Position numbers and translations under genes: made by a program
In this document: positions 8,478 through 59,575 of the stretch, piece after piece
Position numbering within the stretch: the stretch's first letter is position 1
Layout of the letters: each line of letters starts with the position of its first letter
Assembly (NCBI RefSeq): GCF_900890425.1
Contig: NZ_CAAHFG010000003.1
Coordinates: 434,001-498,000, forward strand
Reading direction: 5' to 3'
Source: Pontiella desulfatans
Lineage (GTDB): Bacteria > Verrucomicrobiota > Kiritimatiellia > Kiritimatiellales > Pontiellaceae
DNA: 64,000 nucleotides
Notes under the pieces: generated by a model
What the model saw: the letters and a program-made list of their open reading frames with translations, nothing else
Told to the model about the DNA's origin: nothing
Database searches by the model: none

Positions 8478-8558
8478 GTAGACGGAGCATCCTGCTTTGT
8501 GTCCAATGGACAGGCATGTTCCGTATTCACCCGGAACGAAGCTGGAAGCTTCGTCTAC
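8478..8558. repeat. Head-to-head REP-like hairpin pair (BIME-like)
   Basis: The + strand copy is GTAG (8478-8481), arm ACGGAGCA, loop TCC, arm TGCTTTGT (to 8500). The - strand copy is GTAG (8558-8555), arm ACGAAGCT, loop TCC, arm AGCTTCGT (to 8536); its stem is perfect. The two face each other across 35 bases in the gap between the convergent FGE-fold and tex genes. The layout equals that of REP/BIME elements recognised by RAYT transposases. The pair may also help end transcription from both sides, but there is no U-tract. Confidence 0.72.
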
Positions 8559-13146: not shown

Positions 13147-13168
13147 GTAGTCCCGCCTTTAGGCGGCC
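13147..13168 (+). repeat. REP-like hairpin, GTAG plus CCGCCT stem
   Basis: GTAG (13147-13150), then TCCCGCCT, TT and AGGCGG. The same core occurs as a perfect 28-bp palindrome at 49047-49074. It lies between uraA and the UPF0158 gene. Confidence 0.6.
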
Positions 13169-13212
13169 TGAAAGATTCGGTCGCATATGGGCGCTTGCGT
13201 TGGAGGAAATGT

Positions 13213-13629: not shown

Positions 13630-13998
13630 ATATGGATGTCTTCGCGTTGCATGCGCAAAGGGCGCCGTTCGACGGTGATGCGACGAGGGCGTCGCTTCTA
13701 CGTTGTTTTCTTTTCGTTCGTAATGGGAGAGCGGAGACTCGGTCTCCGCAGTCCAGGGCGGCTGCGCCGCAAGGTATCCGGTTGATTTGTGCGTTGAGCG
13801 GAGCGAAACGCCTTGGAGTGCGGCATCGGCGATGCCGCTTTCCGCGCGCAGAGGGAGAGCGGTGCGCCAACGGTTAGAGGAACTTAGCTTGAATGGTCTC
13901 ACCACAGAGGACACGGAGGCACAGAGAAATATAGCAATCCCGCTCCTCTGTGCCTCACTGCCCTCTGTGGTAAAAAAACGAATCAGTTTAATTTGGTA
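13630..13998. other. Repeat-rich intergenic region
   Basis: I see no gene here. The space is filled with hairpins: GCGACG-AGGG-CGTCGC at 13680-13695, two GGAG-type REP-like hairpins, and a 122-bp long-arm element from 13878 onward (listed separately). Confidence 0.7.
13726..13838 (+). repeat. Two GGAG-type REP-like hairpins
   Basis: The first is GGAG (13726-13729), A, GCGGAGAC, TCG, GTCTCCGC (to 13749). The second is GGAG (13815-13818), T, GCGGCATC, GGC, GATGCCGC (to 13838). Both have a perfect 8-bp stem and a 3-base loop at the same distance from the tetranucleotide. They are direct repeats in layout but differ in stem sequence. Confidence 0.68.
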
Positions 13999-16799: not shown

Positions 16800-17159
16800 G
16801 TTGAACTTTCCAACCAAAGGAAAAACAGGCGCATTTATCCCGTATTCGCGGGAGCGGTGCAATACTTTGGATGAAGGATTTGGTCGTTGGAGGGCACGGT
16901 TCCACCCGAGCCTGCTCTTCATGCGTTGATCCGCCGCTGTTTTCCAACGGTGTAAACCGATGCTGGAGGGTCGCACGCCGTGCGCCCGGGCAGACGGCGT
17001 CTGCCCTTCCAACAGAGGAGAATCCGGTTCGCTTGCGAGCCGGTTTTTTGTTTAACGTGGAAGCCTTCGTGAGCATGCCTCACGCCTCGTCGCTTTGCAC
17101 ATGCTCCGCAGTCCGCACGGCAGGAACGCGACGAGGGCGTCGCGTCCACGATTTATCAA
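16800..17159. other. Intergenic region with REP-like hairpins, no gene
   Basis: I see no gene. It contains a degenerate GGAG hairpin near 16889, the BIME-like pair at 16965-17010, a terminator-like stem (17024-17032 with 17035-17043, then six T) with no gene leading into it on the + strand, and an ACGCGACG-AGGG-CGTCGCGT hairpin (17126-17145) related to the one at 13680-13695. Confidence 0.65.
16965..17010. repeat. Abutting pair of REP-like hairpins
   Basis: GGAG (16965-16968), GGTCGCAC, GCC, GTGCGCCC is joined directly to GGGCAGAC, GGC, GTCTGCCC (16988-17006) and then TTCC. Read on the opposite strand the second hairpin follows GGAA, so the two units face each other with no spacer. The second stem is perfect; the first has one mismatch. 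Confidence 0.66.
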
Positions 17160-34326: not shown

Positions 34327-34390
34327 GTAGCTCGCATGTCCGATGCGAGTTCCCGCTACCAAGGAAACGCGGATCGGATATCCGCGCTAC
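34327..34390. repeat. Head-to-head REP-like hairpin pair (BIME-like)
   Basis: On the + strand: GTAG (34327-34330), CTCGCATG, TCC, GATGCGAG. On the - strand: GTAG (34390-34387), CGCGGATA, TCC, GATCCGCG (to 34368). Each stem pairs in 7 of 8 positions. Layout and TCC loop equal those of the pair at 8478-8558. Confidence 0.72.
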
Positions 34391-41867: not shown

Positions 41868-42037
41868 AAGTGGTGCGTCGGCGGTGCGGTGGTATTTCCC
41901 CGGCGGGGAATGGTTGGTGCGGGAGCGGGGACATTCCTGTCCCCGACGTCCCGGGTGTCGGCCCAATTGTTTCGTCATTTCCTGCGGAAGACATCGACAA
42001 CGAATTCGTGGCCTGAGGCGGGAGTGGGGGTGGTTTT

Positions 42038-48098: not shown

Positions 48099-48148
48099 CA
48101 GGATGTTGCAGTTATGCTGACGGCCGTCAGCATAACTGCAACATCCTG
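48099..48148. repeat. Perfect 50-bp palindrome
   Basis: Bases 48099-48123 (beginning CAGGATGTTGCAG, ending GCTGACGG) are the exact reverse complement of 48124-48148, with no loop. The identity ends sharply, although AACCC and GGGTT flank it a few bases out. It could extrude as a 25-bp cruciform. Confidence 0.9.
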
Positions 48149-49046: not shown

Positions 49047-49074
49047 CGTAGTTCCGCCTGCAGGCGGAACTACG
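49047..49074. repeat. Perfect 28-bp palindrome, GTAG/CTAC ended
   Basis: CGTAGTTCCGCCTG is followed by its exact reverse complement. Both strands therefore read GTAG, TTCCGCCT, GC, AGGCGGAA. The stem is that of the hairpin at 13147. It lies between the DUF1080 and Gfo/Idh genes. Confidence 0.75.
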
Positions 49075-58366: not shown

Positions 58367-59377
58367 TTATCCGGGAGCCGGCGGGGCGATACCTTCCAGG
58401 CGCAAGTCCCGCAGGTTGAAGAGGTCGAGTAGGCCTCCTCCGCGGATTTTCCGGGCCCCGTTCTTTCTGCGTTCGCTGAAAAGGCTTCGGTTCTGCTCGA
58501 ATACTTCCTCGATGAACATCCGGCTGCCCAGGGCCACGCCGTCATTGAAATAGCGCACCCGGCAATGCATGAGTTCGAAGAGACCCAGCTCTCCCTTGTT
58601 TTCGAGAACCTGCCGAACTTTATCCGGTTCAAATCCCTGGCGGCTCCCCGCTTCTTCGCCCGTGCAGAACAGCTGTATCCGGTATTGGGCCGCGATTTTA
58701 CGCCAGCTGGCTTCTTGCCCGTGCAGGAAAAGGATGCGTTCAATGCCCGTGCGTGCCGCAGTGCCTCCGGCCACGGCCTCCGCATAGCCGCAAAAACGGT
58801 ATTCGCGAGGATCGTCAACGAGCCCGGCCCGTACGGGATTGAGTTCAATGTAGGTGGCCATGGTGGCGATGGCATGGTCCGAGTCTTCCACGAGAACGCT
58901 TTTGAAGCGTTCCTCCCAAAGGGTTCCTTTGCGGTTGTATTTACGGTTGTACCATTTCGAAAACCGCTCTTTGAGCTCCTTCACAAAGATCGAAAGATCG
59001 CCCATGCGCGAGGTGTATTTCATTCGCCATTCATCCAGCCATGAGGTGTCGCCTGTCTCCTTCGCATGGAGTGAAGCCCGTTCATATGCTTGAATAACAA
59101 CACTTGCCCGCTGTTTGGAATAGAAGGCCTGGATGCGATCGATAAGTTCATCATCTTCAAGCTCAACAACCGTAGGCACCTCGGCCAGAATATGCCAGTG
59201 ATTCGACATGATGCAATAGGTGAGCACGCGCACCCCGGTAAATTCCCCAAGCTTCCACATGGTTCTCCTGAAGAATTCCTTTTCCTCATCGCCCATGATG
59301 TAGTCTCGGTTCACGACACGGGACATGACGTGGTAATAGTTGGTTTCACGTTTTCCAAGTATGCGCGGTTTCCTCAT
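58367..59377 (-). CDS. rayT: REP-associated tyrosine transposase (RAYT), Y1 family
   Basis: A 336-residue protein from ATG ending at 59377. Y1-transposase signs: NYYHVMSRVVNRDYIMGDEE, VLTYCIMSNHWHILAEVP with the HxH metal-binding NHWHI, and FVKELKERFSKWYNRKYNRK then GTLWEERFKSVLVED, holding the candidate catalytic Tyr (WYN). NPVRAGLVDDPREYRFCGYA follows the family. The C-terminal 120 residues are an extra domain of unknown role. Such proteins are single-copy, chromosomal and act on REP hairpins with GTAG/GGAG tetranucleotides; hairpins of that design are scattered through this window. There are no terminal repeats of an insertion sequence around it. Confidence 0.85.
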   Translation of the reverse strand: MRKPRILGKRETNYYHVMSRVVNRDYIMGDEEKEFFRRTMWKLGEFTGVRVLTYCIMSNHWHILAEVPTVVELEDDELIDRIQAFYSKQRASVVIQAYERASLHAKETGDTSWLDEWRMKYTSRMGDLSIFVKELKERFSKWYNRKYNRKGTLWEERFKSVLVEDSDHAIATMATYIELNPVRAGLVDDPREYRFCGYAEAVAGGTAARTGIERILFLHGQEASWRKIAAQYRIQLFCTGEEAGSRQGFEPDKVRQVLENKGELGLFELMHCRVRYFNDGVALGSRMFIEEVFEQNRSLFSERRKNGARKIRGGGLLDLFNLRDLRLEGIAPPAPG

Positions 59378-59575
59378 GGGCAAAATCCATACCACGATGT
59401 GCGAAGTGCAGTCAAACTATTAAACTATTATGTGCCTGTCACTATATATGCTATATATGGATGATGCGTCGAATGTACAAGTCCGGGCGCGGTACCTACA
59501 ACAATTGGGGTGGATAATGGGTGGAAATGGCGAGGGGGGTGATGTTTATTACCTATCGTTTTAACAACGAGGTTT

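Follow-up and report, generated by a model that had tools for sequence, protein, structure and literature searches.

The window, by which we mean the whole analysed stretch of 64,000 nucleotides from the genome of Pontiella desulfatans (Kiritimatiellota; 8.66 Mb in 6 contigs), contains on its minus strand a gene for a Y1 (HUH, single-Tyr) transposase-like protein. Its frame spans 58367-59395 and encodes 342 amino acids (aa) from a GTG codon, or 336 aa from the ATG at 59377, where the protein starts with MRKPRIL; the RAYT-like Y1 gene that a preliminary description had placed at 58367-59377 is therefore present. Both the HUH motif and the catalytic tyrosine are found, with the motifs NHWH and YIELNP, and the protein matches PF01797 (E 1.2e-12); against NF047646 (REP_Tyr_transpos) it scores 64.2 bits, under the cut-off of 80. 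The predicted structure, whose confidence is limited to the catalytic domain, most resembles the RAYT of E. coli (4er8) and the TnpAs of IS608 and ISDra2; the C-terminal half was modelled with low confidence, and no HTH Pfam match was obtained there up to an E of 1. The nearest named relative for this protein is Pontiella sulfatireligans F21, with 77% identity.

The window also carries short hairpins preceded by a tetranucleotide tag, which were found where the preliminary description had listed them, together with three it had overlooked (13678-13701, 17126-17149 and 41922-41945). The pair at 8478-8558 is a head-to-head doublet of a family referred to here as F1 (GTAG-ACGRAGCW-TCC), with its left half on the plus strand (8478-8500) and its right half on the minus strand (8536-8558); the left half carries GTAG and not GGAG as first described, and reads GTAG-ACGGAGCA-TCC-TGCTTTGT. 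A second doublet, of family F2, consists of GTAG-CTCGCAT-NTCCG-ATGCGAG (34327-34349, plus) and GTAG-CGCGGAT-ATCCG-ATCCGCG (34368-34390, minus). The third doublet belongs to a GGAG-GGKCGCAC-GCC family: with up to 6 mismatches allowed, its left half (16965-16991, plus) is matched 17 more times in 2.06 Mb, against 0 for the control, and in its right half (16984-17010, minus) the tag has drifted to GGAA. Two of the overlooked elements belong to family F3 (GTAG-NNGCGACG-CCCT), both on the minus strand, at 13678-13701 and, with a GTGG tag, at 17126-17149; the third, GGAG-CGGGGACA-TTCC-TGTCCCCG (41922-41945, plus), is an exact copy of the REPs flanking another RAYT of the genome (L126, C1:14859). Among the single hairpins, GTAG-TCCCGCC-TTTA-GGCGG (13147-13172, plus) has a small family of 4 relatives in 2 Mb, and GGAGT-GCGGCAT-CGG with a TTTCC tail (13815-13843, plus) resembles hairpins within the RAYT gene L125 (C1:950125). 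On the other hand, the hairpin GGAGA-GCGGAGAC-TCG (13725-13754, plus; first placed at 13726) and a perfect palindrome of 28 bp that carries GTAG close to each end (49047-49074) are single copies: a search of 2 Mb allowing up to 6 mismatches gave no relatives. Their status as REPs is doubtful, and the palindrome may be either a double-foot REP or a terminator. A spacer-free 25-bp perfect inverted repeat (CAGGATGTTGCAGTTATGCTGACGG and its complement) also lies at 48099-48148.

Hairpin statistics were gathered from 2.06 Mb of the genome, sampled in stretches, by ranking all 256 tetranucleotides directly 5' of stems of at least 8 bp with no tags preselected. The tetranucleotide enrichment on which the preliminary description had made its REP reading depend was found, with TTAG (22x), GTAG (14x) and GGAG (11x) leading the list; AAAA and AAAG were likewise enriched. 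Among 201 neighbouring hairpin pairs, 11 were homotypic head-to-head GGAG/GGAG and 9 GTAG/GTAG pairs, and both the tag enrichment and the homotypic doublets exceed chance. When listed, the tagged hairpins sort into families of constant stem, loop and tail, and the earlier notion of variable stems on a constant architecture needs correcting: throughout the genome the F1 pattern GTAGACGRAGCWTCCWGCTYCGT of 8478-8558 occurs in 27 places and the F2 pattern GTRGCKCGSATATCCGATSCGMG of 34327-34390 in 92, the reversed control patterns in 0. Two other scans were less informative, the mismatch-tolerant one having its signal diluted by A-rich terminator-like hairpins and a 13-mer copy-number scan around RAYTs being too strict.

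If most hairpins were intrinsic terminators or palindromes arisen by chance, this would agree with the intergenic position of the majority and with the enrichment of AAAA/AAAG, as expected for bidirectional terminators. This explanation is highly improbable given the specific tags, the family-fixed stems and loops and the doublets of set spacing, and the copy numbers of F1 and F2 against empty controls make it wrong for both of these; it may still apply to the hairpins at 13726 and 49047. Window hairpins have a fixed tag, 0-2 nt upstream of a short stem-loop, more often than expected by chance, and they are multi-copy and arranged in head-to-head doublets. On these patterns we read them as mobile REPs and REPINs of several co-resident families. 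A RAYT/REP system with REPIN-like doublets exists, then, in a PVC-type genome, as first proposed; that such systems are little described in PVC bacteria was only partly right, as GTAG REPs were already known from Opitutus terrae and Rhodopirellula baltica (PMC3733652). No earlier report of GGAG or TTAG tags was found in a search of open-licence literature. In the RAYTs studied so far, the tag serves as a guide, its two final bases choosing the CT cleavage site (PMC8266576); GTAG, GGAG and TTAG share the final AG, and CT is therefore the predicted cleavage site in Pontiella as well.

About 25 Y1/RAYT-like genes were counted in the genome, and the preliminary description had taken the one in the window to be the RAYT that generated the hairpins. 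Its Y1/HUH fold and its co-location with them in one window are in favour of that view. Nevertheless, no tagged hairpins were detected by a flank scan around this gene (L140) or its two paralogues (L139 and L141); a single GGAG hairpin within its coding sequence, at 58912, belongs to no family. Tagged hairpins of their own do accompany seven further Y1 genes, beside or within the gene, and one of these sets is of the window's F2 type. The flank scan found such hairpins at L121, L123, L126, L131 and L135; those in L125 are offset by one base, those around the IS200-like L002 carry TTAG, and the largest F2 cluster lies at the RAYT L135 (C1:389735). YIELNP, the long C-terminal extension and the surroundings free of REPs are also shared with the subclass 2.1 or TIRYT proteins (Quentin 2018; Di Nocera 2013), and REPs were not found for subclass 2.1 by Quentin et al. 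(PMC6006769); in the C-terminal part of the window protein, modelled with low confidence, no HTH Pfam match was found. It is thus probably a subclass 2.1 Y1 and probably not the partner of the window REPs, given its bare flanks, the motifs of a REP-less subclass and the tagged hairpins, F2 included, at other Y1 genes; its having made the hairpins is very unlikely.

Other RAYTs, nested and free, do lie between REPs of their own family. The one at C1:14859 is of the non-nested kind, with an open frame of 207 aa. Such an arrangement, as well as REPs in frame within RAYT genes, has been reported before (PMC3733652; PMC6006769), and the Pontiella system resembles the RAYT/TnpAREP REPtrons and REPINs of the GTAG superfamily in its HUH-Tyr protein, tag and short hairpin, doublets, RAYTs flanked by their own REPs and several families per genome. 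It differs in the GGAG tags alongside GTAG and GTGG and, in its relatives, in RAYTs placed in frame inside essential host genes.

Several further repeats were observed in the genome. At C4:1090790-1091948 (L095, L002), an IS200-like TnpA of 150 aa lies among about seven TTAG-CCYNGGGC-AAC hairpins that also occur scattered through the genome, a REP-like satellite of a classical TnpA; they were treated as a separate system. A 612-aa protein at C1:3934640 (L122) has a RAYT first, followed by a zinc-ribbon/HTH-like and nuclease-like region that includes REP-encoded peptides. Palindromes of the TTCCAATCCTTGGAA type recur (e.g., L137 2279-2293; 16 counts of the 13-mer in 2 Mb, both strands) and are perhaps operators. 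The hairpin GGAG-GCAGTCGGGGAACC-CG-GGTTCCCCGACTGC, with seven occurrences in identical flanks (L024, L045, L071, L077, L107 and L111), is probably a piece of a longer repeated element and not a REP.

Relatives were searched with the L126 RAYT as the query, and the matches, mostly of 40-51% identity, lay in open frames of about 450-1500 aa. In the order that includes Pontiella, and in the genus itself, almost every homologue of this RAYT lies in frame within a host gene, the hosts including those for PriA, XseA, the CCA-adding enzyme, B12-radical SAM proteins, HypF, diphosphomevalonate decarboxylase and methyltransferases. In the Pfam scans, Y1_Tnp is flanked by two portions of a single host protein in XseA, PriA, the CCA-adding enzyme, HypF and diphosphomevalonate decarboxylase; it is nested at two different sites in B12-binding radical SAM proteins (at the second, the segment after the RAYT was read by eye), and in the TatD and Fic hosts the RAYT occupies a C-terminal position. 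Grouping by host parts gave 52 distinct RAYTs in ten host families, open frames of 225-300 aa in GC-rich genomes, possibly due to chance, being excluded from nesting. Many of the nested RAYTs are bracketed on both sides by tagged REP hairpins; in the B12-radical SAM and HypF genes (L173, L176, L180) the REPs carry GTAC or GTAT and a C before the stem, which makes one more variant of the tag, and TACC is also enriched in the P. desulfatans genome. Across a phylum sample of 289 genomes the RAYT family is widespread, partly free-standing and partly in long frames. Eight long frames were Pfam-scanned, with Y1_Tnp between host domains of LeuRS (three genomes), ValRS, HsdR and MmeI and also present in a PLP decarboxylase frame; in the large chain of carbamoyl-phosphate synthase (CarB, L342) the RAYT was detected by profile search and motifs, not by Pfam.

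Nested cases come mostly from MAGs, and one nested PriA is carried by the isolate P. sulfatireligans F21 (G021, 5 contigs). Several loci are interrupted by contig ends and one HypF frame (L189) has an in-frame TAG, so that some nested copies may be decaying. P. desulfatans itself shows nesting only as a REPIN in priA and as a C-terminal fusion at C2:338240 (L123), where the CobQ (cobyric acid synthase) frame runs on into a RAYT, with GGAG REPs within the RAYT part and the frame unbroken. In the open-licence literature, no account was found of RAYT genes nested in frame in essential genes, and this lifestyle seems undescribed so far. Unexpectedly long proteins were dropped by Quentin et al. as gene fusions or annotation errors (PMC6006769), which may be why nested RAYTs were overlooked.

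The PriA linker that joins the 3' DNA-binding domain to the winged helix is found in three states among the relatives: empty, with one REPIN, or with REPIN-RAYT-REPIN. In P. desulfatans, priA holds, at C4:916390-916506, one in-frame doublet of the family seen at 8478-8558 (GTAGACGGAGCTTCCAGCTCCGT ... ACGGAGCGGGATGCTCCGTCTAC). F1 REPs number 11-65 per genome in the seven genomes of the genus with the RAYT of type A in PriA, versus 0-27 in twelve others, with P. desulfatans itself at that maximum of 27; their number is higher with the allele (Mann-Whitney p ~0.0003, uncorrected for relatedness). This comparison required a readable PriA, G013 being omitted for a cut PriA and genomes with no PriA match left unscored. 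Given the three states and the F1 numbers, the solo REPIN may be what is left after loss of a RAYT, or may have been inserted on its own.

PriA is single-copy in 47 of 47 genomes with PriA, XseA in 55 genomes and LeuRS, essential in bacteria, in 10 of the 10 checked, 3 of them nested. Open frames of PriA fall into two groups, of about 740-800 and 870-1200 aa; a few of the long ones reflect upstream read-through, as in P. desulfatans, where 1019 aa from stop to stop include an insert of only about 34 aa. The HUH motif is retained in all 56 RAYTs aligned and the catalytic tyrosine in all of them except L243 and L135, part of the XseA clade having Y-x-x-K-N in place of Y-x-x-N-P. In pairs with unsaturated dS, RAYT dN/dS is about 0.04-0.2, similar to the host parts; at silent sites the RAYT is somewhat more diverged than its host in 14 of 18 disjoint pairs (p 0.03), which is suggestive only and may reflect allele exchange or a different silent rate. 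The nested RAYTs could be dead insertions, with hosts that are pseudogenes or redundant and frames open by chance, as the fragmented state of some MAGs, the stop in L189 and the same excess of silent divergence might indicate. We hold this to be quite unlikely, since the frame is kept on both sides in dozens of cases, the hosts are single-copy and some essential, dN/dS is low in RAYT and host, and the insertions persist across an order. Domestication of the RAYTs as useful domains of PriA, XseA and others, with loss of mobility, would fit the retention of catalytic residues, the low dN/dS and RAYT clades that follow the host gene. It is somewhat more plausible than dead insertions and still unlikely: one and the same module sits in unrelated enzymes (HypF, CCA, LeuRS), its presence is patchy, with empty and solo alleles, and the partner REPs are dispersed through the genome in larger numbers.

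When the 13 host-gene labels are mapped on a tree of the 56 RAYTs, 13 changes are required, near the minimum of 12 and far from the shuffled mean of 36, with one change for XseA, one for CCA and two for PriA. The XseA, CCA and PriA clades each include genomes from both families of the order, and so does each of the types A and B in PriA; along the PriA host tree, where within-family branches are weakly supported, RAYT presence switches at least 6 times. We read this as long residence of RAYT lineages in one gene with rare jumps, and homing is possible.

Several known systems share features with the nested RAYTs. REPs read in frame in host genes were reported before, and both these and the Rickettsia palindromic elements (RPE) are palindromes in frame in hosts that are often DNA-repair or tRNA enzymes, as here (PMC3733652); in those systems palindromes alone are inserted, whereas the modules described here hold a whole transposase gene between them. 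Inteins share the in-frame insert, the same site and the patchy alleles in conserved, essential genes, all of which the nested RAYTs display, but no intein/HINT family was among the Pfam matches of the nested proteins and splicing is not expected. The IS200/IS605 transposases share the fold, the single-strand mechanism and a guide tetranucleotide beside a hairpin; no left/right-end IS structure is evident in the nested elements.

We favour, with a probability of about 0.72, a reading in which several REP families each have their own RAYT, the Y1 gene of the window is REP-less, and one RAYT lineage lives in frame in genes. Each REP family would be spread by its own RAYT, an HUH single-strand transposase reading a tag (GTAG, GGAG or GTGG) and a short hairpin; one lineage in the phylum would have become a stop-free REPIN-RAYT-REPIN module, in frame in host genes, many of them essential. 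In the frames analysed, REPs and RAYT are read through in the host frame, and both host halves are kept, single-copy where checked. The host protein would tolerate an insert of about 200-300 aa owing to its position in linkers or loops, and the RAYT would be made as an internal domain. As the alleles suggest, recombination between the flanking REPINs would delete the RAYT in frame and leave a solo REPIN, as in the priA of P. desulfatans. Finally, a RAYT would persist in one gene over order-level times, with rare jumps to new genes, as imprecise deletion would kill the host gene. More tentatively, these modules might be intein-like selfish elements without splicing, in which REPIN-RAYT-REPIN homes to one codon site of an essential gene, passes from species to species as alleles of this gene and is retained because its imprecise loss is lethal; this we regard as possible, and less probable than the opposite.

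It is an open question how RAYTs and REPINs can last for so long when neither a benefit nor horizontal transfer is obvious; a recent model assumes that a gene is destroyed when a REPIN is copied into it (PMC8049555). A transposase read in frame within LeuRS, ValRS, PriA or the CCA enzyme would have a direct means of persisting. Besides, nested RAYTs would provide naturally occurring examples of large insertions tolerated by essential enzymes, and the co-resident families with different tags are material for reading out tag recognition by RAYTs.
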